A stretch of DNA of 64,000 bases, taken from the NCBI RefSeq assembly GCF_014656435.1, contig NZ_BNCK01000002.1, positions 303,475 through 367,474 on the forward strand. The letters are read 5' to 3'. Each line of letters opens with the position of its first letter. Position 1 is the stretch's first letter. The notes beneath the pieces were generated by a model. The model made no database searches, was not told the origin of the DNA, and saw nothing but the letters and a program-made list of their open reading frames with translations. This DNA comes from Thalassotalea marina. GTDB taxonomy: Bacteria > Pseudomonadota > Gammaproteobacteria > Enterobacterales > Alteromonadaceae. Positions 37,092 to 50,549 of the stretch are shown piece after piece. A program made the position numbers and the translations under genes.

Positions 37092-39203
37092 ATGCCTGAT
37101 AGCAGTTTCGTGGTTACAGCGCCAAAAAGTGAAGTTTACCTTAATGAAGAATTTCATTTTGGTGAGTTTGTGTTTAACTCTAGTTGCCTTATTTTAATGA
37201 AAAATGGGGAAGAGTTGTCCGTAGAGCCTCAAGTACTTGAGTTACTGCATTTCCTGATTAAAAACGATAGCCGATATATTCTCACTGAAGAGTTGCACAA
37301 TGAAGTGTGGAAAGGTCGAGTTGTAAGTGACGCGGCAGTGAGACGAGCGATTAGTAAGTTGAGAGCATGTTTGGGGCATAATGAAAATGATGAACCTTAC
37401 ATAAAGTCTGCTCATAAGCGAGGATACAAATTTAACGCAAAATTATTGCGTGTAGAGTCAGCCCATCTAAGTCCTGAAACAATTAAAAAAGTATTTAATA
37501 TCCCTTTGCTGCTAGTGGTGGGGATTGTCATTATTTTTTTAGCGTTTACTGGAGTCAGGTTTGTAATCGAACGATATGCACAGACGGCTGAATTGGATAC
37601 AACCCATCCACCTAGCTTTTTGTCTTCGCCTTTACTGACTTTTCATGGTGAAAAAACTGATTTGTCAAAAAGTGATGATGGTCACTGGTTGGTTTTTGCT
37701 GGAAAAAACCTAGGCTTCCAAGGTTTTCAGTTGTTTCTTTCTAATCTAAACACACGAGTAACTAAGCAGCTTACCATTAATGAAGATAACATTATTCGGG
37801 TGGAGTTTTCACCTAACAACCAGCGTCTTTATTATATAAATTTGTCCATCGGTAATGCTTCACTAAGTACCATTGCGTTTGATGAACAACATAAAATCAT
37901 TGATAAAAAGAGTTTGATTAGTGATTATTATTTTTTGGCTGACTTTGCTCTAACACCTGATGAATCAGGGATTTACTTTACCGGAATGAGAAGTAAATCA
38001 GCAAATAGCCAGGTGTTTTATTTAGATTTAAACACGTTATCAATAAGTGAAATAACTTCAGGTTACCAAAATGAATCTCATGATTACCGAATTTCCATGT
38101 CGAATGATGGAGCAACATTAGCCATCGTGAGTATAGTGGGTGATGTAGAACAAAAAATATCGCTCATTGATGCCAAGTTACACAAAGTAAAACAGCGCTT
38201 TTTCCACGAAGCCCCTCTGTTATCAGTTGAGTGGCTCAATAAAAATGAAATACTGCTTTTAGACAAACTTTCTTTAACGCGTCTAAATATCGAGACAGGT
38301 AGTAGAACCGTTGTTCAAAAACCAGATGAGGTGGTACTAAACTCCATAGATATCACGTCGGCAGGCGAAGTAATTGCGCTTACTGAAGGAGACAAAAACA
38401 ATCTCTTTATCGAGGTTGATTTTCCTTCTATGCATATCAGTAACAAAAAAGTATTAACTGGAATTGCTGACGATATTGTAGATGTGAAATTTGCAGGAGA
38501 AAGCGGTAAATATATCTTGCTCAGAAAAGAAGGGAACACCTACAGCTTATTGAGCCAAGAAATGAGTAATGAGTCAAAAACGACAATATTTAGCTCTAAA
38601 CTTCCGATTAGTTTACAGTCAATTTCCCGAAGTGGTGATCAAGTGCTACTTTTTTTAGACGGCTTGTTGGCAATATTACATTGTAATGAACAACAACTTG
38701 AATACATTCACAGTGGTGATCGGCTATTGGCTACAGAGGCGACATTTGGCCAATCTGGAAAAAATATTATGTTTGGTGAGCGTACTAACGACGGGTGGAC
38801 TATTCAAAATATTGATTTGGTCTCAGGCCAACAATATAAACTTTTTGAGGGCTATTATTCTGCTCTGGAATACAATAATGGCTATTTGCTTAGGGATGAG
38901 AAAGGCAAAGTATATAGCAAGTCAGATAAAACAAGTGAAGCGAAGTTTCTAGGTATTGAAATCATGATAGATAAACGCTCCACATGGTTTGTTCGTGGTG
39001 ACGTATTGTATTGGAGCATTCACGACGGTATTACAGCGCAATTTTTTGCAAAAAACTTAGTGTCAGGTGAAGGATACAATTTAAATTTTGATTCATCATT
39101 GGTCTCATCAAGCTTTGATCTTAACAATGAAGGACGCAAAGCAATTTTACAAAGTCAACAACTGCCAGACTCTAAAATAGTGGCGATTAGGTTAAAACAA
39201 TAA
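37092..39203 (+). CDS. CadC/ToxR-like membrane transcription regulator with TolB-like propeller
   Basis: Residues 22-117 form an OmpR/PhoB-type winged helix (SVEPQVLELLHFLIKN, then VVSDAAVRRAISKLRA and the wing IKSAHKRGYKF). A single membrane helix spans 136-158, and about 540 residues remain on the periplasmic side with recurrent TolB/WD40-like beta-propeller strands. This one-component design places sensor outside and DNA binding inside. It lies directly upstream of the peptide/ABC cluster, separated by an 824-bp gap with direct repeats, so it is a good candidate regulator of that cluster. The signal it senses is unknown. Confidence 0.85.
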   Translation: MPDSSFVVTAPKSEVYLNEEFHFGEFVFNSSCLILMKNGEELSVEPQVLELLHFLIKNDSRYILTEELHNEVWKGRVVSDAAVRRAISKLRACLGHNENDEPYIKSAHKRGYKFNAKLLRVESAHLSPETIKKVFNIPLLLVVGIVIIFLAFTGVRFVIERYAQTAELDTTHPPSFLSSPLLTFHGEKTDLSKSDDGHWLVFAGKNLGFQGFQLFLSNLNTRVTKQLTINEDNIIRVEFSPNNQRLYYINLSIGNASLSTIAFDEQHKIIDKKSLISDYYFLADFALTPDESGIYFTGMRSKSANSQVFYLDLNTLSISEITSGYQNESHDYRISMSNDGATLAIVSIVGDVEQKISLIDAKLHKVKQRFFHEAPLLSVEWLNKNEILLLDKLSLTRLNIETGSRTVVQKPDEVVLNSIDITSAGEVIALTEGDKNNLFIEVDFPSMHISNKKVLTGIADDIVDVKFAGESGKYILLRKEGNTYSLLSQEMSNESKTTIFSSKLPISLQSISRSGDQVLLFLDGLLAILHCNEQQLEYIHSGDRLLATEATFGQSGKNIMFGERTNDGWTIQNIDLVSGQQYKLFEGYYSALEYNNGYLLRDEKGKVYSKSDKTSEAKFLGIEIMIDKRSTWFVRGDVLYWSIHDGITAQFFAKNLVSGEGYNLNFDSSLVSSSFDLNNEGRKAILQSQQLPDSKIVAIRLKQ

Positions 39204-39823
39204 TACCAAGTTTAAAGCTTGTTAAGGTATTCACTTTCTTACTTTACGCAATTTTTAATATTTAACTCATTTTTAAGCACTACCAAGCTTAAGGGGATGT
39301 GAATTATATCATTGCAGCTTGTCCAATATGTGTTCAGCAATTCTACTTATTTTCTCATTCAACTTCCTGCTAACTAAAACAATTTGTTGTTAGCACAATA
39401 AACCAACTCAGCGCGACAACGTTGAGTTACGTCAACATTGATTTAGACAAGGTTTAAAAAGAGCAGGTCAATTCGTAAAATGAGGTTAGTGAGCATAAAT
39501 AACTGTAAAAATCTATCTCTTGGGTGGTTAGTCGTAACTATCTGTGAAATTGAATTAAGCTCAAAATAGCACTTCAATGCATAGATAAGGCATAAAGCTT
39601 CGATAGTTTTGACATCAATTGACAAAAAACTGCTACTTAAATGTGACCGTAAAATTAAGGTTAGAAAATCTCGTGTGCTGTCATTTCTTGTTTTTAAAAT
39701 TTAATAAAAACACTGACATTTTTTTCTCTTTAGAAACTCATTTTGAGTATGTCTTTTGAACAAATCAATCGTTAGGTAAATTAAATTGTTTATTAAAAAC
39801 ACATAAAATACAGTGGTTTATTT
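39204..39823. other. Long AT-rich non-coding stretch
   Basis: No open frame here has a convincing ribosome site; the longest candidates are 20-30 codons and lack one. I see only weak inverted repeats (AATACC at 39204-39209 with GGTATT, and ACTCA-TTT-TGAGT near 39735). It may hold a long regulatory region or a small RNA, but nothing can be assigned. Confidence 0.5.
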
Positions 39824-39842
39824 TGTGACTAAACTGTGACTA
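39824..39842 (+). promoter_or_regulatory. 11-bp-phased direct repeats, candidate winged-helix operator
   Basis: TGTGACTA occurs at 39824-39831 and again at 39835-39842, one helical turn apart (period 11 bp). OmpR/CadC-type winged-helix regulators bind such head-to-tail repeats. A candidate -10 TATTAC at 39858-39863 follows with only a poor -35 (CTGTGA, overlapping the second repeat), which would suit an activator-dependent promoter. The link to the upstream CadC-like protein is inference. Confidence 0.45.
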
Positions 39843-40027
39843 TACCTGCAACCAAGATATTACCAACTGGCTTTTACCCACATCACAAACAAATCAATAA
39901 ATAGTCACTGCTTGGTTATTTCAAAACCACTAATTGCCTCCCAAACTGAGCTTAACTGTTGAGCACCGAGCTTAGACTCAACATTAACTACTGGCAATTT
40001 AGCCATAAAAAATGGAAGGAAAATAAA

Positions 40028-40222
40028 ATGAACAATTCAGCAACTAAAACATTTAAAAATATTTCACTTAACACTTTATTAATCGTTTTTTGTACAACAT
40101 GTTTTTCCACTACTTCTGTTGCAATGGAAAATGTTAAGCCACTTTCAACTTCTGAAACCACAACAGACGAGAGCACAGTGCTAAAAGTGGTTTGTCGATT
40201 AGCGCCTCAGTTATGTCTTTAA
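40028..40222 (+). CDS. 64-residue secreted peptide with C-x6-C end
   Basis: ATG 40028 follows GGAAGGAAAATAAA. Residues 1-32 look like a Sec signal peptide (basic start, hydrophobic core ISLNTLLIVFCTTCF, cleavage after SVA). The predicted mature part of about 32 residues is Ser/Thr/acidic and ends in VVCRLAPQLCL, with Cys56 and Cys63 able to close an eight-residue disulfide ring. No family is recognised. It stands before a LuxR-type regulator gene and could be a secreted signal or a structural peptide. The frame extends upstream to 39959, but without a ribosome site. Confidence 0.6.
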   Translation: MNNSATKTFKNISLNTLLIVFCTTCFSTTSVAMENVKPLSTSETTTDESTVLKVVCRLAPQLCL

Positions 40223-40325
40223 ATAACGTGGGTTTACTCAGGACATTTAAAAAGTCGTTGGTTTGAAACACGCACTTAATTTATGCATAGCGCAGTTTTT
40301 AAACATCCAGAGAGGTGATAACTAG

Positions 40326-40991
40326 ATGAAAACTATAGAGTGGTTGATTAGAAATGCTCAGCAAATAAATTCTCAACAAAAACTTAATGAATTTATTCGC
40401 TCCATTGGTGAAGGCAAAATGTATTTGTGGTCAGGATTTATCGTAAACGTTATTAAATCGCCTACTTGCAGAGAACTAGACACCTTTGGCAGCATTCCAG
40501 ATTGGGTAGTTTCTGCAACGCAAAGTAAATTGAGTCGTCTTGACGAAAAAGGACTGCCATTAGTCGTCAATAAAGAAGAGTTGATTGAACAGTATCCTGA
40601 AGAAGATTGTTGTAGTTTCTTGGTGATACCGTTTAGCGGCTTTACTAATGAATCTGGTTATTTTGCCTTAGGGTTAGATCTTGAGTGCACGAGCTTAACT
40701 GCCCAAGCGATTGAGCAGTTAGGGTGGTTTTGGTCCATCATCATCCCATATATCTTTGCTGCCTACAAAAAGTGCCGTCAACAAGAGCTTCCTCATATCA
40801 CCAAGCGAGAATTGGAGTGTATGAAATGGGCGTCAGAAGGAAAAACTTCGTGGGAAATAAGTCAAATTCTCAATATTTCTGAACGCACGGCAAACTTTCA
40901 TTTGGCAAATTGTATTGAAAAAACCGGCAGTATTAATCGTCAACAGGCAATAGTTAGGTGTTTATTGCAAGGCCAATTGCTGGTTAATTAA
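40326..40991 (+). CDS. LuxR-type transcription regulator
   Basis: A C-terminal LuxR helix-turn-helix spans residues 158-215 (ITKRELECMKWASEGKTSW, then ISERTANFHLANCIEKTG). The first 150 residues are predicted globular and resemble the size of an autoinducer-binding domain, but I do not see the usual conserved Trp/Tyr/Asp-Pro set for acyl-homoserine lactones. No luxI gene is in the window. It is followed after 16 bp by a 50-residue protein and is probably the local regulator of the peptide cluster. Confidence 0.85.
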   Translation: MKTIEWLIRNAQQINSQQKLNEFIRSIGEGKMYLWSGFIVNVIKSPTCRELDTFGSIPDWVVSATQSKLSRLDEKGLPLVVNKEELIEQYPEEDCCSFLVIPFSGFTNESGYFALGLDLECTSLTAQAIEQLGWFWSIIIPYIFAAYKKCRQQELPHITKRELECMKWASEGKTSWEISQILNISERTANFHLANCIEKTGSINRQQAIVRCLLQGQLLVN

Positions 40992-41007
40992 ATAAGGAGG
41001 AAAACTG

Positions 41008-41160
41008 ATGATGACCAATAGTATCCAAGGTGAAGAATCAACCTGGATCAGTGAGCTAAATTTACTCGATGCTATGTGTGCCCAGTACCTCGATAGGTTT
41101 AGCTTAGATCCAAGCGAAGCTGAAGTCGACAGTCAAGAACGAATACTTGACGATGAATAG
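41008..41160 (+). CDS. 50-residue acidic protein
   Basis: A perfect AAGGAGG at 40994-41000 precedes tandem ATG codons at 41008 and 41011. The product is 50 residues and very acidic (ending AEVDSQERILDDE), with one cysteine and no signal peptide. It overlaps or abuts the next gene. I recognise no family. The exceptional ribosome site shows it is very probably translated. It could be a leader-type substrate, an anti-regulator or a chaperone for the adjacent membrane protein; this is open. Confidence 0.62.
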   Translation: MMTNSIQGEESTWISELNLLDAMCAQYLDRFSLDPSEAEVDSQERILDDE

Positions 41161-41167
41161 GTGCATT

Positions 41168-41812
41168 ATGCAAACCTTGTTAATCAAAACAAACCTAATT
41201 AAAGCGATATTTATTGCTATGTGTTTATTGATAACACTGCTTTTCATCTTGGTTAGTGTAAATGAGAATGTGCCTAAGGGCACATCCATTAAAGTAACAG
41301 GAGATAGTCTGTATAAAATAGTGTTGCCTACTAATACACATTATACCGAACAGATTGTTGCCAATGGCGAGTTGCTTAACAAAGGCCAAATAATTGCAAA
41401 ATTCAAAGACTCATCAGGGCGACACGTAGGCGTAACACAGGCGCGAGATCAAGGTTATTTTGTTAAAAATCCTGACTGCTGCCATGGTGATGATCAGGAA
41501 CTTTTTGGCTATTTAGTGAAAAAAAGTAAAAATGAAGTGATTTTTTTTCAGTCAAATTACGCTATAACTCATGACTTCAGCCCAGGAGAAAAAGTTGTAA
41601 TACAGTCATCAAACTTGTCACTGGAAGGTGAGGTTCTTTTAGTGATGGGAGCTGAAGGAAAGTCAATAAAAATGGTCTATGGCATTAGTTTTAATGAGCG
41701 TCCTAACTTCCAATCCTTACTGTATGGAGAGCGCTTAGTTATTCGTAAAATTAGTCCAGTAAAAGGCATGATAGAAAAATCGCTAAAAGAGGTGTTTATG
41801 ATCAGGCTGTAA
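41168..41812 (+). CDS. Short membrane-fusion-like (HlyD-type) protein
   Basis: From ATG 41168 (AGGTG site at 41159-41163) the product has 214 residues: a membrane helix at about 10-30, then a lipoyl/barrel-sandwich-like stretch (TEQIVANGELLNKGQIIAKFKD) and beta-rich segments to the end. It lacks the long coiled-coil hairpin of a full HlyD adaptor. ATG 41153 is an alternative overlapping start. It could be a half adaptor or an accessory subunit for the downstream exporters. It contains a Cys-Cys pair (DCCHGDD) near residue 103. Confidence 0.6.
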   Translation: MQTLLIKTNLIKAIFIAMCLLITLLFILVSVNENVPKGTSIKVTGDSLYKIVLPTNTHYTEQIVANGELLNKGQIIAKFKDSSGRHVGVTQARDQGYFVKNPDCCHGDDQELFGYLVKKSKNEVIFFQSNYAITHDFSPGEKVVIQSSNLSLEGEVLLVMGAEGKSIKMVYGISFNERPNFQSLLYGERLVIRKISPVKGMIEKSLKEVFMIRL

Positions 41813-41822
41813 GATCTATCAG

Positions 41823-41873
41823 TTATCAAATTTTATTTTTTCCTCATAATTAATCCTGTCTTGTGAGACAAGA
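41823..41873 (+). promoter_or_regulatory. Promoter and dyad in front of the 40-residue peptide
   Basis: TTATCA (41823-41828) and CATAAT (41845-41850) form a promoter with 16-bp spacing. The start would fall near 41857, and a perfect dyad TCTTGT-GAG-ACAAGA (41859-41873) begins there. The dyad could be an operator or a 5' stabilising stem in the transcript. Confidence 0.5.
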
Positions 41874-41912
41874 ATAATTAACAAAAACTATTTATTTATA
41901 GAGGAAAATACA

Positions 41913-42035
41913 ATGAAAACTTTACCATCACTATCTCAACCAGTTTCTGTATACGGTTCACGTTTAGAGTCTGAAACAGCAGCAGTATTAGCTGGTATTG
42001 CGATCGGTATCGCAATTGGTATCTACTTGAAGTAA
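41913..42035 (+). CDS. 40-residue glycine-zipper peptide (candidate bacteriocin/RiPP precursor)
   Basis: ATG 41913 follows AGAGGAAAA. The 40-residue product has a polar N-terminal half (MKTLPSLSQPVSVYGSRLES) and a hydrophobic C-terminal half (AAVLAGIAIGIAIGIYLK) with glycines at 28, 32 and 36 in a G-x3-G-x3-G zipper made of a GIAI repeat. It has its own promoter and a strong hairpin 10 bp after the stop, the arrangement seen for highly expressed precursor peptides ahead of processing and export genes. No double-glycine cleavage site is present. A small membrane protein with no antibacterial role is the alternative. Confidence 0.65.
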   Translation: MKTLPSLSQPVSVYGSRLESETAAVLAGIAIGIAIGIYLK

Positions 42036-42044
42036 TACCAATCC

Positions 42045-42080
42045 CCGGAGAAGGTACTTCACTTTCTCCGGTTTCTTTGT
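42045..42080 (+). terminator. Hairpin after the 40-residue peptide gene
   Basis: CCGGAGAAGGT (42045-42055) pairs with ACTTTCTCCGG (42061-42071) around ACTTC, with one G-U pair, followed by a T-rich tail. It may end most transcripts after the peptide gene, with partial readthrough into the operon that starts at 42329. Confidence 0.82.
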
Positions 42081-42328
42081 TTTCTGCTTTTTATTCGCAA
42101 TTTCGATACATATCCCTGTCATTTGTAACAGTTTTCTAAGATTTTATTCATCGGTAGCATAAGTCAATCACTTTAGTGTTGTTGGTAACAATAGCGCAAC
42201 TAAATGAAACGTTTTTCATATTGTTGCTAGTTAAGTGACTTAGCAGTGATCAATGGATACAAGAGTTTAAAGGGGAAGCCCCGTGCTAACCATTTGAACA
42301 CAATTTTAGATATACGCAGGATTAAACA

Positions 42329-43246
42329 ATGAAAAATGAAGTAACAGTACAAGATATAAGTGAATTTCAACTAGAACTCCATCAAACCTATAAAAAACAT
42401 CCGATTTTGGCGGCGATATTAAAGCAGTTAGAAAATGTTGAAGACTTTGATTTTTGGCAATATCAGCAACAATTTGCCAAGTTGTTATCTTCTGACTTTG
42501 TCGAGCAAGCTGTAAATAAAGAATTAGGGGCTTTTTTAGAAGAGGACTTTTACCAATTGCCACTGTACTTTAACAATGGTCGAGCAAAGGGGTGGGTTAT
42601 CTTAAACACGCCATATTTTAGGTTTAACACTTACTTTTTTGATGGTGCTTTAGTTAATGACTATCGCACAAATAACAAGAACAAAACCTTTTCAATTCAA
42701 ACGTCACCACAAGATTTATTGATGTATTTCCCTAAGGCAAAAGGGGCCATTTTAGACTTGTACGAATGTGTTGAACAAAATGCTGAGTCTGATATCGCAC
42801 CACAAGTTAGATTAAAAGAAAGTATTCAGCTTCAAGATGGCCAGTTTGTTGAAATCAAGGCAGGTTTACACGCAACTCATTTTAGAGAAATCACCAAAAA
42901 CTTAACTTACTACGAAGTATCCAGCGTCAGTAGCGCGGCTCGTATGGTAGGTGAATATGATTTGAACAGCCTATCTCTATTAGGGTTAAGTGCAGCCAAC
43001 TTATCATCATCTCGTGCGGAAATGTTTTCTGAGATGGTGGCTAGCTTGCAGCATAAAGAGTCAGCACCTGTGCTCAAAAAACTGTGCCAACATCGAGACC
43101 ATTTTGTTCGCTGGTCTGCCGCAACAAGCCTGTATTCGTTAGACAACGACGCAGGAGAAGAAATGATCCAATCGTTAACTCAAGATCCACACCCAGACGT
43201 AAGACAAACAGCACAGAAATGCGTTGCTATGTTTGCAGCCCAATAA
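42329..43246 (+). CDS. HEAT-repeat protein A of the peptide cluster
   Basis: The product has 305 residues and no signal peptide. The N-terminal 85 residues are helical; residues 90-190 look beta-rich; and the last 70 residues are HEAT-like (APVLKKLCQHRDHFVRWSAA, then MIQSLTQDPHPDVRQTAQKC). Its centre and end resemble the next gene in layout (for example GQFVEIKAG against GEKVDLKYI), so the two are probably paralogues. I do not recognise an enzyme motif. A role in binding or modifying the 40-residue peptide is inferred from linkage only. Confidence 0.75.
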   Translation: MKNEVTVQDISEFQLELHQTYKKHPILAAILKQLENVEDFDFWQYQQQFAKLLSSDFVEQAVNKELGAFLEEDFYQLPLYFNNGRAKGWVILNTPYFRFNTYFFDGALVNDYRTNNKNKTFSIQTSPQDLLMYFPKAKGAILDLYECVEQNAESDIAPQVRLKESIQLQDGQFVEIKAGLHATHFREITKNLTYYEVSSVSSAARMVGEYDLNSLSLLGLSAANLSSSRAEMFSEMVASLQHKESAPVLKKLCQHRDHFVRWSAATSLYSLDNDAGEEMIQSLTQDPHPDVRQTAQKCVAMFAAQ

Positions 43247-43257
43247 GGAGACCTACA

Positions 43258-44145
43258 ATGGCTATAGAATTATTACCACAGAACGAGAATGCAATTGAGT
43301 TAGAAGAGTTTATTGAATATGCCGAAGAGCATGTTGATATGAAAGACCAAGACACCTTAGCTGCTGCTGCACCTATGATGAAAGCGTTATCAAACAACCG
43401 CACTTTTTTAGCGACGAAAATCAACAGTGAATTGGAGAAAATTGCTAACTTTCAAGAAGATAACTTGTATGGTGCTCAAGTGTTAATGTTAGGCAGAAGA
43501 AAACGCTTTTTCATGCGTGCTTGTTTCTGGCCTAGTGAGTCTGACAAGTCTTACCAACAAAGCGGTCCAGAGGCATTTTTTTATTATTTACCACATGACC
43601 ATAACTTTAATTTTTTAAGTGTGGGTTACTTTGGTCCTGGTTATGAAAGTGAATATTACGAGTACGATCATGACAAGGTGATTGGATTGCCTGGCGAAAA
43701 AGTCGATTTGAAATACATTAAAACATCTCGATTACACGAAGGTAAAGTAATGCTTTATCGTGCCAAAAAAGACATTCATTACCAGATCCCACCAAAGTCT
43801 TTTTCAATTAGTTTAAATTTGATGGAGGACAGTGTTGATTTGCCACGTATTAATCAATATCGATTTGATTTACAAAGCAGCACAGTTAATCGAATGATAA
43901 ACCGAAATAGTGGCCCAGTATTGGCGAGCATAGCTGCGGAAGTCGGCAATGAAAATACCATACAGTTGTTAACTGACGTTGCTGAAAGGGTTACTTGTCC
44001 ACGCACTAAAACCGCAGCTGTTAAAGCGCTGTCGTCACGTTTACCAATCACTCAACAAGCGACTTTTCTAAGCAGTAAATTAACAGGTAAAAGCGATTTC
44101 TTTAATGAAAGTTTAAAACAACATATTCAACGGTTGGAGGCCTAA
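43258..44145 (+). CDS. HEAT-repeat protein B of the peptide cluster
   Basis: ATG 43258 follows AAGGAGA, 11 bp after gene A. The 295-residue product starts with an acidic helical part, then a beta-rich aromatic segment (FFYYLPHDHNFNFLSVGYFG), then HEAT-like helices at the end (SGPVLASIAAEVGNENTIQL, then KTAAVKALSSRLP). It is a diverged relative of gene A. Paired HEAT proteins that act as a heterodimer are known (CpcE/CpcF lyases), but I see no specific homology to them. Function is unassigned. Confidence 0.75.
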   Translation: MAIELLPQNENAIELEEFIEYAEEHVDMKDQDTLAAAAPMMKALSNNRTFLATKINSELEKIANFQEDNLYGAQVLMLGRRKRFFMRACFWPSESDKSYQQSGPEAFFYYLPHDHNFNFLSVGYFGPGYESEYYEYDHDKVIGLPGEKVDLKYIKTSRLHEGKVMLYRAKKDIHYQIPPKSFSISLNLMEDSVDLPRINQYRFDLQSSTVNRMINRNSGPVLASIAAEVGNENTIQLLTDVAERVTCPRTKTAAVKALSSRLPITQQATFLSSKLTGKSDFFNESLKQHIQRLEA

Positions 44146-44147
44146 TC

Positions 44148-44858
44148 ATGTTAATAGCAAAAGGGGTAGGCAAGTGCTTTAAATCCCGAAAAACTGGAGA
44201 TAAATGGGCAGTTAAAGACGTTAATTTTACTGTTCAACCTGGTGATATGCTGGCGTTATTAGGGCGTAATGGTGCAGGTAAATCAACATTGATGAAGTTA
44301 CTTGCCGGCATTATTAGTCCATCAACAGGAACCATTGAATTAAGCGGTAAGCTCCAAGGTAAAGTGCAGTTATTAACACCGGCCGAGCACTTGTATAAAG
44401 AACTCACTGTTTTTGAAACGCTTGATTATTTCTGCACTTTATATGAGCTAAGCCGTGAAGATAGTGCAGCAGCTATTGGTAAAGTGATAGAGCAATTTAA
44501 TTTACAAGATTTCATTGATAAAAAAGTGGGTAGTTTATCCACGGGGATGAAACAAAGAGTGTCATTAGCAAAAACATTTTTGATTGACCCTCCAGTGATC
44601 ATGCTTGATGAGCCGACCGCAGGTTTAGACATTGAGTCGAGTTTTAAATTAATCGAAACCATTAACCAAATTCGTGATTTAGGTAAGGTCATTATCGTTT
44701 CTACTCACAATATGTCTGAGGCAAATCAAATTGCAAATCGTGTATTAATGCTTGAACAAGGCTCATTGGTTTGCGATTTAAAAATGCAGGAATTTGAAAG
44801 TTCGGCGGATAGTTTAGAGTCGGCTTACATGAATAAGTTGGAGGTTTGTAATGTTTAA
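44148..44858 (+). CDS. ABC transporter ATPase, NatA-like
   Basis: A 236-residue nucleotide-binding subunit with Walker A GRNGAGKST, signature LSTGMKQR, Walker B VIMLDEPTAGLD and the switch histidine in VSTHNM. It follows the second HEAT gene by 2 bp and overlaps its permease by 8 bp. It most resembles NatA/BcrA-type export ATPases. Confidence 0.93.
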   Translation: MLIAKGVGKCFKSRKTGDKWAVKDVNFTVQPGDMLALLGRNGAGKSTLMKLLAGIISPSTGTIELSGKLQGKVQLLTPAEHLYKELTVFETLDYFCTLYELSREDSAAAIGKVIEQFNLQDFIDKKVGSLSTGMKQRVSLAKTFLIDPPVIMLDEPTAGLDIESSFKLIETINQIRDLGKVIIVSTHNMSEANQIANRVLMLEQGSLVCDLKMQEFESSADSLESAYMNKLEVCNV

Positions 44859-45978
44859 TACAGCAATAATTCGCTCTGTTTATGGCAAAGAATTTAGAGA
44901 GTTTTCTCAAGACACACGTACCTTGATGATTGTATTTTTAGTGCCTTTGTTACTTATTCCAATCATTACACTAGCAACGTATAGCACTAATATTGAGGTT
45001 AGTGAAAACCAACAGCGACGTGGGGTGATAGCAAACGATTGCCAGCAAATTCCAACGGAGATTTTAGCGACAACTCGCTGTGTGACGCCCAGCGAGAAAG
45101 CCTCGGTGATGCAGCAGGTTAAAACATCAGAACTCAATTCATTGTTAGATCTAACCACCAAGGAATTGTATTTAGCTAATGCCGCACTGACTAGCGAACA
45201 ATATCTAAAAAATATTGAACGAGACTTTCTGAGCTTGCAATACAGTGATTCGACTTATTATCAAGTTATTGATTTAAAAAGTGAAGAAAGCATTGTTAAC
45301 GTCATTGGTACAAGCCTGGCCAATGTACTGGTGATGTTAATTATTACGTTTAGCTTTGTTGGTGCTGTCAATTTTGGTATCGATACAACGACGGGAGAAA
45401 AAGAGCGAGGTTCTTTTGGTCTTTATGCTGAATTTAAAGAAAACTTGACGTCAATATTTGCAGGTAAGTTAGCATTTACTTCTTTTTGCTCAGCTTTAAG
45501 CGCTTTGTTAGGTATAGTCGGTATTACTTTATCTATCGTTGCAGTAGAGCATTTTTATGGTGATACCGCGAGTTTAACGCAGTCTGAAAGTGAAAAAGTA
45601 ACAGCATTTTTTAACTATGTGCAGATGTTAAGTCTACAGGATGTACTGGTGGTATTGCTCTACTTAATTCCTTGTGTGGTGTTAATTTCTTCACTGGTAA
45701 ATTTATTTGGATGTATCGCCAAAAACATGAAAGAAGCCAAAATGCTAAGTTTGGTCTTGATTATTCTCATTGTGACTTTAACTAAAGTTGATTTAGGAGA
45801 TGGTAACTTTTTTTACACTGCATTCATCCCGGTACTTAATGTTTTTACTGGCGTGAACAATGCCTTGACCCAGTCTGTTGATTACAGCCATTTAGTGGTC
45901 TCAATTCTCGTTAATATTAGCATATGTATTAATAACCTTTTTGATATTAAGAAGCTGATCATTAAGGAGAAAATATAA
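44851..45978 (+). CDS. ABC-2 type permease, NatB-like
   Basis: The 375-residue product has an N-terminal helix after KEFREFSQDTRTLMIVFLVP (the NatB-like start), a periplasmic domain of about 130 residues, and five more helices between residues 155 and 365. It pairs with the ATPase whose stop it overlaps. Such exporters move small hydrophobic peptides, ions or antibiotics. Confidence 0.88.
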   Translation: MFNTAIIRSVYGKEFREFSQDTRTLMIVFLVPLLLIPIITLATYSTNIEVSENQQRRGVIANDCQQIPTEILATTRCVTPSEKASVMQQVKTSELNSLLDLTTKELYLANAALTSEQYLKNIERDFLSLQYSDSTYYQVIDLKSEESIVNVIGTSLANVLVMLIITFSFVGAVNFGIDTTTGEKERGSFGLYAEFKENLTSIFAGKLAFTSFCSALSALLGIVGITLSIVAVEHFYGDTASLTQSESEKVTAFFNYVQMLSLQDVLVVLLYLIPCVVLISSLVNLFGCIAKNMKEAKMLSLVLIILIVTLTKVDLGDGNFFYTAFIPVLNVFTGVNNALTQSVDYSHLVVSILVNISICINNLFDIKKLIIKEKI

Positions 45979-46655
45979 TGACTAATCAAATAGAAAACCC
46001 CGTATATTACCGCCAAGCTGCATCGCTGCAGTTTGGCCCTATCCTGATAACTTTGACAGTTATTATCGCCTTCTGGAATTGGTATTTTAACACCGTAGAC
46101 AGTCAATGGTTGATAGACAATATGCTGCATATCCAAGTAATGACCGATGATCTTGGAACCGAAGAGCAGAAAATTCTAAGTAGCATTTTAACCATCGACT
46201 TTTTGAAGTTTTCGACGTTACTAGGTGCCATTGGCAGCTTAGTCATATCACTACTGATATTGTCTGCTTATGTAGTACTGGTGAGTCGCTTTGTTCTGCC
46301 ACAAGGGCAAGAAGTTGGTTTTACAACGGCGATCAATGTGTCTTCAGTGTCATCTTTGATGACAGCGAGCATACATTTGTTATATGGCATTTATGTGTGG
46401 TTGGCTCAAGAAAGTAAAGTTAATTTGTATGAAGTAGACTTTCTTAGCTTAAACAACGCCTTGCTTGGATTATCACCAGAACATGTGTTGTTTGGTTTCG
46501 CCAATAGTATTTCGATAGCCACGCTGTTATTTATCGTATGCTGCGGACATTTAATGAGTAAAAAGAGCAGTTTTACTTTTCAACAGGCAACGATTTTATA
46601 TTTAGTTCCCTATGCAGCTATCTGGGGCTTTTTATTAATAAATGCGGTGATTTAA
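45978..46655 (+). CDS. YIP1-like polytopic membrane protein
   Basis: A 225-residue protein with about five hydrophobic segments (near 18-35, 73-98, 110-140, 165-185 and 200-222) and no soluble domain. The layout resembles YIP1-family integral membrane proteins. It starts on the last base of the NatB-like stop codon and ends just before the MacA-like gene. It may be an immunity or export accessory protein; the role is inferred from its position. Confidence 0.7.
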   Translation: MTNQIENPVYYRQAASLQFGPILITLTVIIAFWNWYFNTVDSQWLIDNMLHIQVMTDDLGTEEQKILSSILTIDFLKFSTLLGAIGSLVISLLILSAYVVLVSRFVLPQGQEVGFTTAINVSSVSSLMTASIHLLYGIYVWLAQESKVNLYEVDFLSLNNALLGLSPEHVLFGFANSISIATLLFIVCCGHLMSKKSSFTFQQATILYLVPYAAIWGFLLINAVI

Positions 46656-46656
46656 G

Positions 46657-47802
46657 ATGAAAAATAAACCTCTACTGATTTTTGGATTTGCGCTGGTAAT
46701 TAGTTCACCTTTTATCAAATTGGCAGCAGACAATAATAAACAAAAGTTAGTCAAGGTGGTTAGTGTTGAGCAAGGAAGCTTAAAAGAGCACTTAGTTGCG
46801 ACGGGACGGTTAACCTACAAAAAGGAGCTTAATCTAGACTCCCAGTTAGTCTCAACCGTGACTAAAGTGCTTGTGCAAGACGGAGATAAAGTCATTAAAG
46901 GGCAACCATTGCTCGAATTTGACAGCTTTGAGCTTGATAACCAATTTAACTTACTAACCAAACAAATGAGCAGCGTAAAGGTTGAGCTGGCTATCGCCTC
47001 GACAGAATTTAAGGATGCTCAACGCAAACATGATATTAACATCAAACTCATCGATAAAGGACTCATTGGCAAAGAGCAATTTGATTTAAGTGCTCAAGCA
47101 TTATTGAAAGCCGAGTTAAATGTTCAATACGCACAAACCAAATTGGCGCAAAAACAAACGGAAATAAAAAGTGTTGAAGGACAACGACGTTATTTGCAAT
47201 TAAAGGCGCCATTAGATGGGCTAATCACAACGGTTAACGCATCAGTGGGGGAAAATGTTTACCCAAATCAAATGAATGTTGATTTTAACTATTTGATTTC
47301 TATGGTAGATGATTCAGCCGTATATGCTGAAGTGCGAATAGATGAGCGCTCACTGGCAAACGTGCGTAAAAACCAATTAGCAGAAATATACTTTGCTTCA
47401 TTCCCTGATAAAAAAATTGCAGGGAAGGTGAGCTTTATTTTTCCAACGGTTGATACCAGTGAACAAGGGCTTAGAAATAAAGTACGTATTGCGTTGAACA
47501 AAGCTGACTTGGTCGGTTTATCCCTTAAACAAAACATGAGTTGCCTGGTCAAGCTCAAAGTTTCAGAGACGATACAGAGCGTTTTGGTTCCGATGGAAGC
47601 AATTGTTGAAAGTGATGAATCAAAATATGTCTATGTTTTTGACGGCGAAAAAGTTGACCGTCGATTTATTTCTGTTGGTAGTTCTGACTTTAAAGTGCAA
47701 CAAGTCTTAGAAGGTGTTTCCCCAGGAGAGTCTATTGTTGTAGGGCCTATGAGCACTTTACTCAATCTTACTGATGGTGAACCGGTTAGGGTGGCCATAT
47801 GA
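46657..47802 (+). CDS. Periplasmic adaptor (MacA/HlyD family)
   Basis: A 381-residue protein with an N-terminal hydrophobic anchor, a barrel-sandwich motif (VLVQDGDKVIKGQPLLEFD), a coiled-coil hairpin around residues 100-175, the second lipoyl half (LKAPLDGLITTVNASVGENV) and beta-barrel domains. It should link an inner-membrane ABC exporter to a TolC-type outer-membrane channel. It overlaps the MacB-like ATPase gene by 4 bp. No TolC gene is in the window. Confidence 0.9.
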   Translation: MKNKPLLIFGFALVISSPFIKLAADNNKQKLVKVVSVEQGSLKEHLVATGRLTYKKELNLDSQLVSTVTKVLVQDGDKVIKGQPLLEFDSFELDNQFNLLTKQMSSVKVELAIASTEFKDAQRKHDINIKLIDKGLIGKEQFDLSAQALLKAELNVQYAQTKLAQKQTEIKSVEGQRRYLQLKAPLDGLITTVNASVGENVYPNQMNVDFNYLISMVDDSAVYAEVRIDERSLANVRKNQLAEIYFASFPDKKIAGKVSFIFPTVDTSEQGLRNKVRIALNKADLVGLSLKQNMSCLVKLKVSETIQSVLVPMEAIVESDESKYVYVFDGEKVDRRFISVGSSDFKVQQVLEGVSPGESIVVGPMSTLLNLTDGEPVRVAI

Positions 47803-48470
47803 TTTCGCTACAAAAAGTTCGCAAAGGATATCACTCGTCCGAAGGTGTTTTGGATGTATTAAAAGGGGTAGATCTTAATGTACAACAGTCAGATTTTGTT
47901 AGCTTACTTGGCCGTTCAGGTGAGGGAAAATCAACACTGCTAAATATTTTGGGTGGGTTTGACAGTTTTAACTCGGGTAGCTACGAGTTTAATGGCATTG
48001 AAGTATCGTCTCTTAATTCTTCTGAGCTGACTACATTTCGGATGAACAATATAGGCTTCGTCTTTCAAAGCTTTCATCTGATCAAACATTTAACTGTGCT
48101 TAAAAATATTGAGTTGCCTTTGTTATTGCAAAAAGTGTCTAAAACTGAACGCCGAGTTCGTTCATTGGCAATGCTTAAACGATTAGGGCTAGAAGATAAA
48201 CAAGACTATTACCCTAGACAGCTTTCCGGTGGTCAATGTCAACGTGTTGCAATCGCAAGGGCACTTGTGGTCAAGCCTTCTCTCATTCTAGCGGATGAAC
48301 CTACAGGTAGCCTAGATAGAGAAAATGCCGATAGTATTTTGAATCTGTTTCAAGAACTCAATCAAGAAGGGCACTGCATCGTGCTGGTAACACATGACCC
48401 TCTCGTTGCACAAAGAACAAATAGAACATACAAGCTGCAACAAGGTGTGTTAAGGACGGGAAATGTTTAA
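47799..48470 (+). CDS. MacB/LolD-like ABC ATPase
   Basis: The product has 223 residues with Walker A GRSGEGKST, a Q-loop region GFVFQSFHLI, signature LSGGQCQRVAIARAL and Walker B LILADEPTGSLD. The long-standing MacB/LolD signature identifies the type. It overlaps both neighbours by a few bases, and its partner is the FtsX-like permease. Confidence 0.93.
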   Translation: MISLQKVRKGYHSSEGVLDVLKGVDLNVQQSDFVSLLGRSGEGKSTLLNILGGFDSFNSGSYEFNGIEVSSLNSSELTTFRMNNIGFVFQSFHLIKHLTVLKNIELPLLLQKVSKTERRVRSLAMLKRLGLEDKQDYYPRQLSGGQCQRVAIARALVVKPSLILADEPTGSLDRENADSILNLFQELNQEGHCIVLVTHDPLVAQRTNRTYKLQQGVLRTGNV

Positions 48471-49689
48471 TTTACCTTTTGTATACGACGTGGTGCTCCA
48501 TGTTCTTGAAAGCTTACGTGTCAATGCACTTAAAAGTAGCTTGATTATTGTTAGTGTTGGTATTGGGGTAATGGCACTTGTACTTGGTTTAACTTTTTCT
48601 CAAACCCTTTCGCGTTCTTTAGTCTGGCAATTTGAAAATTTAGGCTCAAATACTCTGACAGTTTCTTCATATTTGCCTTTATCTGAGCAACTTAAAGGCA
48701 ATAAGGCGATCATTAATCATGGTGAATATGAAATGATCAAAAATGCAGTTAGCAAACAAACTGCTAATGTGACGCCGATAATTAGTATTAATCAGGCGGT
48801 TGTTCGCTTCCAAGATAAGTCGATTCAACCCAGTGCGATTGGTACGACATTTAGCTATATGAAGATGCGTAGCCGCTTTGTCGAAAAGGGACGCTTTATT
48901 AATGATGCTGACAACAGTCAACGTCGCCGTTCTGTCGTGATTGGCAAAACTGTGGCAGAAGATTTATCACTTGGGGAAGCGGTTGGGCAGTACATTACAA
49001 TAAATAACGAGTGGTTTATTGTCGTTGGTGTACTTGCTGAAAAAGGTAACTTATTAGGAATTGATTTAGACGAATTGATCATTATGCCTTACCAAACAAG
49101 CCAATCACTTTTGGGTAACGGCGTCGAGCAAGACGTTTTGATTCAAATGAACGTTAACGATGTTAGTAGCGTTGCGTCATTAAGAAATCATATTGTTCAA
49201 TTACTTCGAGAGCAGCATAACCTAGCTCAATACCAAGAGAATGATTTTAAAGTAGAAACCACAGATGAGCTGTTAAGCACGTTTAACAGTGTCTTAAAAA
49301 TTGTCTCAATTACATTAATTTGTGTTGTGGGCTTATCACTAATCGTCGCCTCTGTTGGCATGACAAATATCTTTTTACTCAGCATTAATGAACGAACCAA
49401 TGAAATTGGTTTGATGATGGCCATTGGTGCGGGTCGTAAATTTATTTCATCGCTGTTCATTATTGAATCCAGTGTCTTGACCACTATTGGAGGAGTTGTA
49501 GGACTGTTTTTTGGCTATTTATTGGCCTTGTTTGCGAGCTTAGCGTTACCGGAAAAATATGTAATTGAGTTTCCGGTATCCATGGGGATTTATACCGTGA
49601 CATTTTGCTTTTTGTTGGGGCTGTTGGTCAGTTTGTTACCAGCGTCTAAGGCTTGTACGTTATCGCCGAGTTGCGCTTTATCAAAATAA
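48463..49689 (+). CDS. FtsX/MacB-type ABC permease
   Basis: A 408-residue protein: helix 1 near residues 20-42, a periplasmic MacB-PCD-like domain (up to about residue 270), then three helices around 280-300, 330-360 and 370-395. The conserved NERTNEIGLMMAIGAGRKFI loop precedes helix 3. It lacks a fused ATPase, which the preceding gene supplies. MacAB-like pumps take substrates from the periplasm and push them out through TolC. Confidence 0.92.
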   Translation: MFNLPFVYDVVLHVLESLRVNALKSSLIIVSVGIGVMALVLGLTFSQTLSRSLVWQFENLGSNTLTVSSYLPLSEQLKGNKAIINHGEYEMIKNAVSKQTANVTPIISINQAVVRFQDKSIQPSAIGTTFSYMKMRSRFVEKGRFINDADNSQRRRSVVIGKTVAEDLSLGEAVGQYITINNEWFIVVGVLAEKGNLLGIDLDELIIMPYQTSQSLLGNGVEQDVLIQMNVNDVSSVASLRNHIVQLLREQHNLAQYQENDFKVETTDELLSTFNSVLKIVSITLICVVGLSLIVASVGMTNIFLLSINERTNEIGLMMAIGAGRKFISSLFIIESSVLTTIGGVVGLFFGYLLALFASLALPEKYVIEFPVSMGIYTVTFCFLLGLLVSLLPASKACTLSPSCALSK

Positions 49690-49706
49690 AATTAAGGAGA
49701 AAAAAC

Positions 49707-50549
49707 ATGACAGTAAAAACAATATTAGTGACAGGAGCAACCAGCGGTATAGGTAAACAAGTGCTTAAATCACTCGCTATACAGGGGCATAAGCTAATCG
49801 TTATTGCTCGATGTCCTGAAAAAATTAAGCTTACTATCAATGAGGTAAAAAATGATGCGCCTAATACCGTTATTTATAGTTATGTGGCGGATTTTTCAGA
49901 TGTTGATTCGGTTACTCAGGTGGCTCAGAAGATATCGACAAATCATCCCGTCATTGATGTATTAATCAATAATGCCGGCGCTATGCATATGAAAGAGGAA
50001 GTGGCAAAGTGTGGCCGAGAAAAAACCTTGGTAGTTAACCACATTAGCCATGCTGCTTTGACGTTGGCGTTAATCAACAACCTAAAATTAGCATCACAAG
50101 GTTGCATTATTAATGTTTCTTCAGATTGCTATCGTCTTCCTGGTTATGATTTAAATTGCTCAGATTTCGATGGGAAATACAATTGGAATAAGGCTTATAA
50201 CCGGTCAAAATTAGCGCAGATACAATTTACTCATGTGTTACAAGATAAACTGAATTCGGACAATATTGTGGTGACAAGTGTTAGTCCTGGTGGGGTTAAA
50301 ACGGATATATATAGAGCACTACCTAAAATCGCTCGCTGGCTAGTGTCGTTAACCTTAAAACCAGTTGAACGCGGTGTTGATGATATATTAAAAATAGCTA
50401 ATTTAGAGGACGCGTCTATGTTTGCTGGACAATTTGTATCGAAAGGAAAAGTAAAAACGGTCGAACAGAAATTTTTATCACCTGCAGTATTAACTGAAAA
50501 TTGGCAGATCTCCACCAATCGACTGGCGACAGAAAATTTTGCCGTTTAA
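49707..50549 (+). CDS. Short-chain dehydrogenase/reductase of the peptide cluster
   Basis: ATG 49707 follows AAGGAGA. The 280-residue product has the cofactor motif TGATSGIGK, NNAG, a serine in INVSSDCY and the YNRSK catalytic Tyr/Lys pair. It resembles retinol-dehydrogenase-type SDRs. It is 17 bp after the permease and so probably the last gene of the operon. It could modify a residue of the peptide or be unrelated; nothing in the sequence fixes the substrate. Confidence 0.88.
   Translation: MTVKTILVTGATSGIGKQVLKSLAIQGHKLIVIARCPEKIKLTINEVKNDAPNTVIYSYVADFSDVDSVTQVAQKISTNHPVIDVLINNAGAMHMKEEVAKCGREKTLVVNHISHAALTLALINNLKLASQGCIINVSSDCYRLPGYDLNCSDFDGKYNWNKAYNRSKLAQIQFTHVLQDKLNSDNIVVTSVSPGGVKTDIYRALPKIARWLVSLTLKPVERGVDDILKIANLEDASMFAGQFVSKGKVKTVEQKFLSPAVLTENWQISTNRLATENFAV

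Follow-up and report, generated by a model that had tools for sequence, protein, structure and literature searches.

We wanted to know what is made by the genes at positions 40028–50549 of the window, that is, of the 64,000-nucleotide stretch of Thalassotalea marina DNA analyzed here, where all genes lie on one strand and most of them overlap or stand a few bases apart. The original prediction had read this block as an undescribed system for the production and export of a modified peptide, comprising a short hydrophobic peptide gene, a second secreted peptide, a LuxR-type regulator, two paralogous HEAT proteins (here HEAT1 and HEAT2), a NatAB-like exporter, a YIP1-like protein, a MacA-MacB-FtsX-type pump, and a short-chain dehydrogenase/reductase (SDR). 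Calls of open reading frames (ORFs), Pfam and NCBIfam scans, and profiles of relatives found all of the named genes in place; the list was correct as far as it went and had overlooked an ORF at 41008–41160 and a HlyD-like gene at 41168–41812. We think it probable that the locus belongs to an undescribed class resembling the ribosomally synthesized and post-translationally modified peptides (RiPPs), in which a precursor, an oxygenase (HEAT2) with a dead partner (HEAT1), an exporter, immunity, and LuxR control are combined. The more detailed proposal we hold tentatively, as a serious possibility: a new RiPP class occurring across Proteobacteria, Acidobacteria, and Bacteroidota, in which HEAT2 with its dead HEAT1 twin would oxygenate non-cysteine positions of a hydrophobic peptide, and which in Alteromonadaceae-type hosts would be switched on by a secreted two-cysteine peptide via LuxR.

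A peptide family encoded next to HEAT1 and HEAT2

The core of the locus consists of the following features.

41913..42035, + strand: putative precursor peptide of 40 aa, leader MKTLPSLSQPVSVYGS, C-terminus hydrophobic and GxxxG-rich
42045..42071, + strand: hairpin with T-rich tail, −17.3 kcal/mol, z −4.15; likely an attenuator or partial terminator between the peptide gene and HEAT1
42329..43246, + strand: HEAT1, predicted degenerate cupin (pseudo-enzyme) and HEAT2 paralogue with C-terminal HEAT repeats; Pfam HEAT_2 8e-8
43258..44145, + strand: HEAT2, predicted thiol-dioxygenase fold with H113/H115/H174 and C-terminal HEAT-like helices; proposed maturase

Relatives were collected from the genomes of 84,980 species, which were scanned with an alignment of HEAT2 by way of the single pattern PHDHNFxF, the letters of which are conserved within the scanned set because that pattern was selected for; 338 relatives were confirmed and the best 80 loci were kept. 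These 80 come chiefly from Sphingomonadales, with others from Lysobacter, Tahibacter, Dyella, Stenotrophomonas, Alteromonas, Aquisalinus, Acidobacteria, and Mucilaginibacter. The first relatives examined had ORFs of 36–41 aa directly 5′ of HEAT1. Across a partly hand-picked set of 95 distinct peptides (36–71 aa), a common leader of about ID[IL]xxLPELDTxVGxxGS is seen, with Leu before D/G-T in 89%, and 77 of the 95 contain a 15-residue stretch with a mean hydropathy of at least 1.6, which usually lies in the C-terminal half. With the sequence MKTLPSLSQPVSVYGSRLESETAAVLAGIAIGIAIGIYLK, the peptide of the window conforms to the leader pattern, has a hydrophobic C-terminus, and contains no cysteine.

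A profile built from 47 peptides, all from loci with Sphingomonadales record titles, was searched against 15,236 short ORFs (1.67 Mb). It found the window peptide, which was not among its seeds (E 8.5e-5), and peptides of Tahibacter (3.2e-7) and Lysobacter (5.4e-6, 6.9e-6, and 2e-5), each of them immediately 5′ of HEAT1; the best-scoring ORF away from HEAT1 reached E 0.19. All 76 matches at E ≤ 1e-3 lie 0.7–1.8 kb 5′ of the HEAT2 start on the same strand, a zone that makes up 3.1% of strand-bases, although 45 of them are the seeds themselves, which were taken from the tested position, and the 31 non-seeds are mostly of the same order as the seeds, with those of the window and of loci L017 and L019 coming from outside it. 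Far from consistently lacking a small peptide gene, the HEAT operons carry one directly 5′ of HEAT1 in 66 of 93 copies by the profile alone and in several more by inspection. In L007, L038, L069, L020, and L011, motif-like peptides with weak profile scores (3e-3 to 6) stand at the expected place, and in Dyella (L033) a clear match lies on the opposite strand (E 0.0026). Peptide and HEAT genes thus occur together far more often than chance would allow. Further, the peptide ORFs are real genes because close copies differ mainly at synonymous sites (18 versus 1, 14 versus 2, and 9 versus 1); the pooled pN/pS was 0.23 over 23 non-independent pairs (0.016 to 0.53 for single pairs), which had been selected at ≥75% amino acid identity, a choice that lowers the ratio.

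The peptide gene had also been credited with its own promoter and hairpin. The hairpin (z −4.2) held up, whereas promoter-like sites in 39300–42400 numbered six against 10.3 expected from shuffles and thus showed no excess. Hairpins with z ≤ −2 follow 29 of 85 peptide genes as against 6 of 85 control stretches (Mann-Whitney p 0.015) and are absent from 56 of the 85; strong ones follow the peptide gene in the window, L011, L020, L006, L017, and L033. Such a hairpin would provide the precursor in excess over the enzyme.

HEAT2 has the predicted fold and histidines of a thiol dioxygenase

The two HEAT proteins are paralogous and have a HEAT tail, as had been predicted, but they are not plain HEAT proteins, as the main domain of both is a cupin in the predicted structures. 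The possibility, raised at the outset, that they match a known unrelated family was examined in Pfam and NCBIfam: neither protein has a named family beyond the HEAT tail, and HEAT2 has no family at all (best E 0.15). Sequence searches of solved structures returned artificial HEAT-like (alphaRep) chains and noise and otherwise nothing, and no sequence match to the thiol dioxygenases was found in Pfam, NCBIfam, or the PDB. Structural matches, obtained by VIA-align on Foldseek's own list from predicted models, placed HEAT2 clearly in the thiol-dioxygenase fold, with ADO and PCO among its fold relatives. The iron of thiol dioxygenases is held by three histidines, e.g. His90, His92, and His142 of Av3MDO (PMC8050391). 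In HEAT2, H113-x-H115 and H174 follow in the same order inside the barrel part of the model, and a metal would be placed there as judged from residue order and strands rather than by superposition.

Because the large scan had selected on PHDHNFxF, the HEAT2 residues were rechecked on seven sequences found without that pattern. H113, H115, H174, R87, W91, Y109, F117, G126, G128, Y129, L159, Q176, and S185 are identical in all seven, including the divergent Vibrio plasmid copy L012; R168, D172, S183, N187, and others vary in at least one. The three histidines are also invariant in a 52-row HEAT2 alignment, where H113 and H115 are so by selection. Read by eye, R87 may be equivalent to Arg60 of CDO, which binds the substrate carboxylate (PMC8503633). 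No histidine stands in the conserved alignment columns of HEAT1, and 88 of 92 HEAT2 copies (the 80 best loci plus six others) have an adjoining HEAT1 ORF. As far as these sequences tell, an active HEAT2 paired with an inactive HEAT1 is the likeliest arrangement.

We propose that the 40-aa peptide is a precursor, the N-terminal half of which (LPxLxxxVxxxGS) would be a leader and the hydrophobic, glycine-spaced C-terminal half a core. HEAT2 would be a mononuclear non-haem iron oxygenase that oxidizes the peptide at its H113/H115/H174 site, and HEAT1, as a catalytically dead paralogue, would hold the leader together with the HEAT tails. On the predicted model, peptide oxidation seems the most likely function of HEAT2; ADO and PCO indicate that the fold can act on peptides, namely on an N-terminal cysteine (PMC8503633). 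Following cleavage, a YknWXYZ-like Yip1-MacA-MacB-FtsX pump would clear the matured, membrane-active peptide from the cell, the NatAB-like transporter would protect the producer from its putatively toxic product, and the LuxR regulator with the secreted two-cysteine peptide would control expression. Of the features expected of a RiPP locus, an encoded short precursor, a conserved leader, a distinct core, and a linked candidate maturase gene are present. The modified peptide of the original prediction is supported in so far as an undescribed RiPP-like system is concerned; modification and export are steps that we infer.

Evidence against the proposal and alternative explanations

Several observations weigh against a peptide matured by HEAT2. 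The fold match of HEAT1 is less specific, as the scores of other cupins differ from those of the dioxygenases by no more than about one Z unit (8.9 for the CENP-C cupin), and the Ser-His-Tyr network of CDO appears, by eye, as Ser185-Asn187-Met in HEAT2. A cysteine beyond residue 15 is present in only 34 of the 95 peptides, and because most peptides, including that of the window, have no cysteine, the step common to all cannot be the textbook reaction of thiol dioxygenases. Simple cysteine oxidation was accordingly rejected as the shared reaction, which is probably an oxygenation of something other than cysteine. Among the Pfam and NCBIfam matches of the scanned operon proteins there was no peptidase, although one elsewhere in the genome is possible, and no RiPP recognition element (RRE) domain, at which no search was specifically aimed. 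L012 and L016 have no peptide gene recognizable by eye at the locus. Judged by eye, peptides of the large Sphingomonas subtype seem to be more conserved in their C-terminal half than in the spacer, unlike the fast-evolving cores of bacteriocins, and some pairs of this subtype are under weak constraint (pN/pS up to 0.53). Finally, when exporters were counted by similarity to the window's own proteins (E < 1e-10, within 6.5 kb, 77 full-flank copies), a count that misses divergent ones, no ATP-binding cassette (ABC) ATPase was recognized in 53 of 77 copies (47 of 63 Sphingomonadales-type, 3 of 11 gammaproteobacterial, and 3 of 3 others).

The alternative that survives best is that the peptide stays unmodified, as a class II-like bacteriocin or membrane peptide, and is bound by HEAT1 and HEAT2 in an immunity, chaperone, or sensing role. 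Proteins with a cupin fold often have no enzymatic function, and the hydrophobic C-termini of 77 of 95 peptides, the lack of conserved histidines in HEAT1, and the absence of known RiPP enzyme families from the operon proteins scanned are what this alternative would lead one to expect. We nevertheless regard it as unlikely: the three histidines of HEAT2 together with R87, W91, and Y109 are kept in all seven motif-independent copies, as is typical of a working metal site, and the pair is kept in 88 of 92 copies, whereas ABC genes are near only 24 of 77. Less probable still is that the small protein is a cell-internal signaling or oxygen/redox-sensing partner of HEAT1 and HEAT2, as the fold relatives ADO and PCO might suggest, with the gammaproteobacterial exporter link being secondary. 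The 47 Sphingomonadales-type copies without a recognized ABC ATPase speak for it, as do the many such copies beside an OmpR-like regulator or a sigma-factor-like gene (the latter by eye). It sits poorly, however, with the several different peptides that precede one HEAT pair in L017, L018, L056, L061, L068, and others, with C-termini that are diverse across clades in the set of 95, with the attenuator-like hairpins, and with the ABC ATPases near 8 of 11 gammaproteobacterial copies. That a small ORF is flanked by chance by two unrelated neighbours, a LuxR/HlyD module and an ABC operon for ordinary multidrug efflux, was already disfavored and is very improbable, since the upstream and HEAT modules do occur apart in other genomes but peptide, HEAT pair, ABC-2 ATPase, and MacA-MacB-FtsX recur jointly in L011, L020, L017, and L019, with Yip1 in the first three.

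An identity as an anti-phage defence system was also rejected, as eight operon proteins matched PADLOC families by generic ATPase or HEAT similarity only: 22 models of ATPase type were matched by the ABC ATPase (2e-30 for the best, mad3), HEAT1 matched a HEAT-repeat model (5e-4), and there was no match for the other six.

Comparison with known systems

Daptides have a hydrophobic helical core and an ABC transporter. Like the window locus, they have a short ribosomal precursor, and their product is thought to target membranes (PMC10036551). They differ in that the window's scanned genes include no oxidative decarboxylase, aminotransferase, methyltransferase, or RRE protein and in that the HEAT-linked peptides do not end in a conserved Thr; the daptide model gave 12.5 bits for one relative's peptide against a cut-off of 40 and no match for the window peptide. 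From the thiol dioxygenases (CDO, 3MDO, MSDO, ADO, and PCO), the HEAT pair is set apart by its C-terminal HEAT tail and paired pseudo-enzyme, by linked peptides that mostly lack cysteine, and by the apparent loss of the Ser-His-Tyr network in HEAT2. Other cupin-fold proteins act, or are proposed to act, on RiPP precursor peptides, i.e. PbsQ (PMC12257519) and cupin-4 proteins in proteusin-like clusters (PMC9426513); as these sources describe them, PbsQ has a JmjC-domain protein as a relative and the cupin-4 proteins form a different cupin family, whereas the HEAT proteins are paralogues with a thiol-dioxygenase fold.

In agreement with the original prediction that the locus fits no known RiPP class, Pfam and NCBIfam scans of the operon proteins found no class-defining enzyme of lanthipeptides, linear azol(in)e-containing peptides or thiazole/oxazole-modified microcins (LAP/TOMM), radical SAM, or multinuclear non-haem iron oxidase (MNIO) systems, and the peptide matches no NCBIfam model. 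No description of a HEAT/thiol-dioxygenase RiPP was found among the open-access literature matches listed, judged by titles and abstract openings. The kind of system, a ribosomal peptide with maturase and exporter, is already known; what is new is the enzyme family and the precursor family. If the proposal is correct, it would add a RiPP-like class that genome mining based on known enzymes would miss because its maturases have no Pfam or NCBIfam family name and its precursor genes easily go unannotated. Further, ordinary peptides would join small thiols and N-terminal cysteines as substrates of the cysteine-dioxygenase fold, and 95 distinct precursors and their enzymes would be on offer for testing.

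Exporters and other neighbours

The genes downstream of HEAT2 are as follows.

44148..44858, + strand: ABC transporter ATPase, NatA/DrrA-like (Pfam/NCBIfam match)
44851..45978, + strand: ABC-2 permease, NatB-like; 2.4e-6, 27.3 bits, just below the Pfam cut-off of 31.6
45978..46655, + strand: Yip1/YknW-like membrane protein; E 9.2e-15 to a small profile of four relatives
46657..47802, + strand: MacA/YknX-like periplasmic adaptor (Pfam/NCBIfam match)
47799..48470, + strand: MacB/YknY-like ATPase, assigned by similarity (40–47% identity to relatives' MacB-type ATPases)
48463..49689, + strand: MacB-PCD/FtsX permease, YknZ-like; Pfam 1.2e-29 and 2.1e-17
49707..50549, + strand: SDR, 3.8e-33; possible tailoring enzyme

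Bacillus is protected from the SDP peptide toxin by its YknWXYZ pump (PMC4887032), and the window likewise has a Yip1/YknW-like protein, a MacA-like protein, an ATPase, and a permease together, differing in its Gram-negative host and in the coupling to a peptide and HEAT pair. By itself, the window's Yip1/YknW-like protein has no Pfam family, and its assignment rests on the profile of relatives, two of which (L011 and L020) exceed the Pfam Yip1 cut-off; that of L119 scores 37 bits with the NCBIfam model YknW_fam, under the cut-off of 110.

An ABC ATPase was recognized in 24 of 77 copies: 8 of 11 gammaproteobacterial ones, 16 of 63 Sphingomonadales-type ones (mostly loci with tandem sets), and 0 of 3 others. 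The full window set (ABC-2, MacA, MacB, and FtsX, with window-like MacA and FtsX at E < 1e-10) was recognized in 4 of 77. Peptide and HEAT pair are accompanied by an ABC-2 ATPase and MacA-MacB-FtsX genes, the content of the window, in Alteromonas L011 and L020, Lysobacter L017, and Tahibacter L019; a Yip1-domain gene belongs to the set in L011 and L020, and L017 has a YIP match. Of the single peptide-and-exporter block originally envisaged, the pairing of peptide and HEAT genes is found in most copies and the exporter part in a minority. Predicted export of the matured peptide is well supported for window-type loci and, because of these counts, unproven for the family. In L018, L034, L050, L056, L061, and L068, tandem duplicate HEAT1-HEAT2 sets occur with up to three different peptides per pair, and adaptor, ATPase, and FtsX-like genes come next; such tandem-set Sphingomonadales loci have further adaptor and FtsX-like genes beyond the similarity counts. 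The Sphingomonas chromosomal subtype (e.g. L031, L035, L051, and L086) has peptides that end like DDLFELIVGIAILIYEIAPDFA, no recognized exporters, and an OmpR-like regulator (Trans_reg_C) downstream; L075 (RPSH01000001.1, titled Bacillus sp. 2B10) resembles it, and its organism name is probably wrong. The SDR gene was rejected as a standard part, being within 6.5 kb in 5 of 77 copies only, although it adjoins the peptide gene in Dyella L023. Only neighbour families that had been checked further were used because shadow ORFs, which are numerous in the GC-rich genomes, dominated the clustering of all neighbouring ORFs.

Distribution of the HEAT pair

Counting the window's own genome, HEAT1 matched 5 of 394 genomes of the order, four of them true and the fifth (G264) a HEAT-tail match in a longer unrelated protein, and for HEAT2 the figures were 2 of 369 in the class and 1 of 5 in the genus. 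HEAT2 was also found on two plasmids, one of which is matched by HEAT1 as well; searches of plasmids at the nucleotide level and of viral contigs and phage records found no relative. The low genome counts and the plasmid matches therefore indicate a patchy system that is sometimes plasmid-borne. The gene table of PLSDB, which is itself incomplete, has no entry at the peptide position of the Alteromonas stellipolaris plasmid CP013927.1. The insertion site could not be shown because the two flanking genes tried have no close match in the other four genomes of the genus.

The upstream LuxR and secreted-peptide module

Four genes precede the peptide gene.

40028..40222, + strand: secreted peptide of 64 aa with a signal-peptide-like N-terminus (by eye) and the tail VCRLAPQLCL; candidate peptide signal
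40326..40991, + strand: LuxR-type (GerE) regulator, Pfam GerE 3.1e-16
41008..41160, + strand: acidic ORF of 50 aa with a strong ribosome-binding site, between the LuxR and HlyD-like genes; a 57-aa ORF has the equivalent position in L119
41168..41812, + strand: short HlyD-like protein, assigned by eye and weak profile matches (DevB, 0.17)

The LuxR gene and secreted peptide, which had been counted as part of the block, are present in it and probably form a separate, exchangeable module, as the upstream and HEAT modules occur separately in other genomes. LuxR homologues (E ≤ 1e-15) were found in 15 of 146 other genomes of the family, and in eight of the 15 a small signal-peptide-like ORF with a Cys pair in its last third ends at most 50 bases from the LuxR gene, one overlapping it by 3; the other seven, among them G244 (a strong partial match), have no Cys-pair ORF. 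The tail of the window peptide is matched by VCILLPQLC three times (G031, L119) and by VCILVPELC (G302, L127; not at the very end), [IV]C[AT]DSPTRCE occurs twice per peptide in G768, G827, and G802, and G254, G840, and G872 have less similar Cys pairs. We consider the secreted Cys-pair peptide and LuxR a candidate peptide signal and receptor, suggesting peptide signaling via a LuxR-type protein in Gram-negative bacteria; nothing obvious on LuxR solos with peptide pheromones or bacteriocins was found among the open-access literature matches listed. The short HlyD-like gene has homologues in 5 of 146 other family genomes and no plasmid relative.

Genome G031 (L119:9263–18144 and L123:157–9781) has in common with the window the LuxR gene, short HlyD-like gene, Cys-pair peptide, and Yip1-MacA-MacB-FtsX genes. 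It differs in having neighbours that match SagB, SagD, TOMM leader-binding, and YcaO models above cut-off (TfuA and SagC below) and in having no HEAT1 or HEAT2 match; judged by these genes, the locus is a TOMM/thioamide-type RiPP cluster. MoeB-rhodanese and ubiquitin-like sulfur carrier genes also lie in it. The gene that comes next in G254 is similar to bacteriocin exporters with a peptidase (NHLM_micro_ABC1, 340 bits, under the cut-off of 853), its product being truncated where the sequence taken from that locus ends. Regulator and pump of the window thus look like parts of a kit on which various peptide makers draw, and this favors the view of the HEAT pair as a further peptide maker.

The Cys-pair peptide with LuxR was seen in the window (40028–40991), L119, L120, L121, L122, L126, L127, L128, and L129, several of these being bacteriocin- or RiPP-like loci. 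In L128 and L129 (G840 and G872), peptides of 59–83 aa with a double-glycine-like LDELDKIVGG stretch (by eye) lie between the LuxR and HlyD-like genes; the 83-aa type matched no NCBIfam family. Just upstream of the block, at 37092–39203, lies a gene for a 703-aa protein that has 22 further matches in the same genome.

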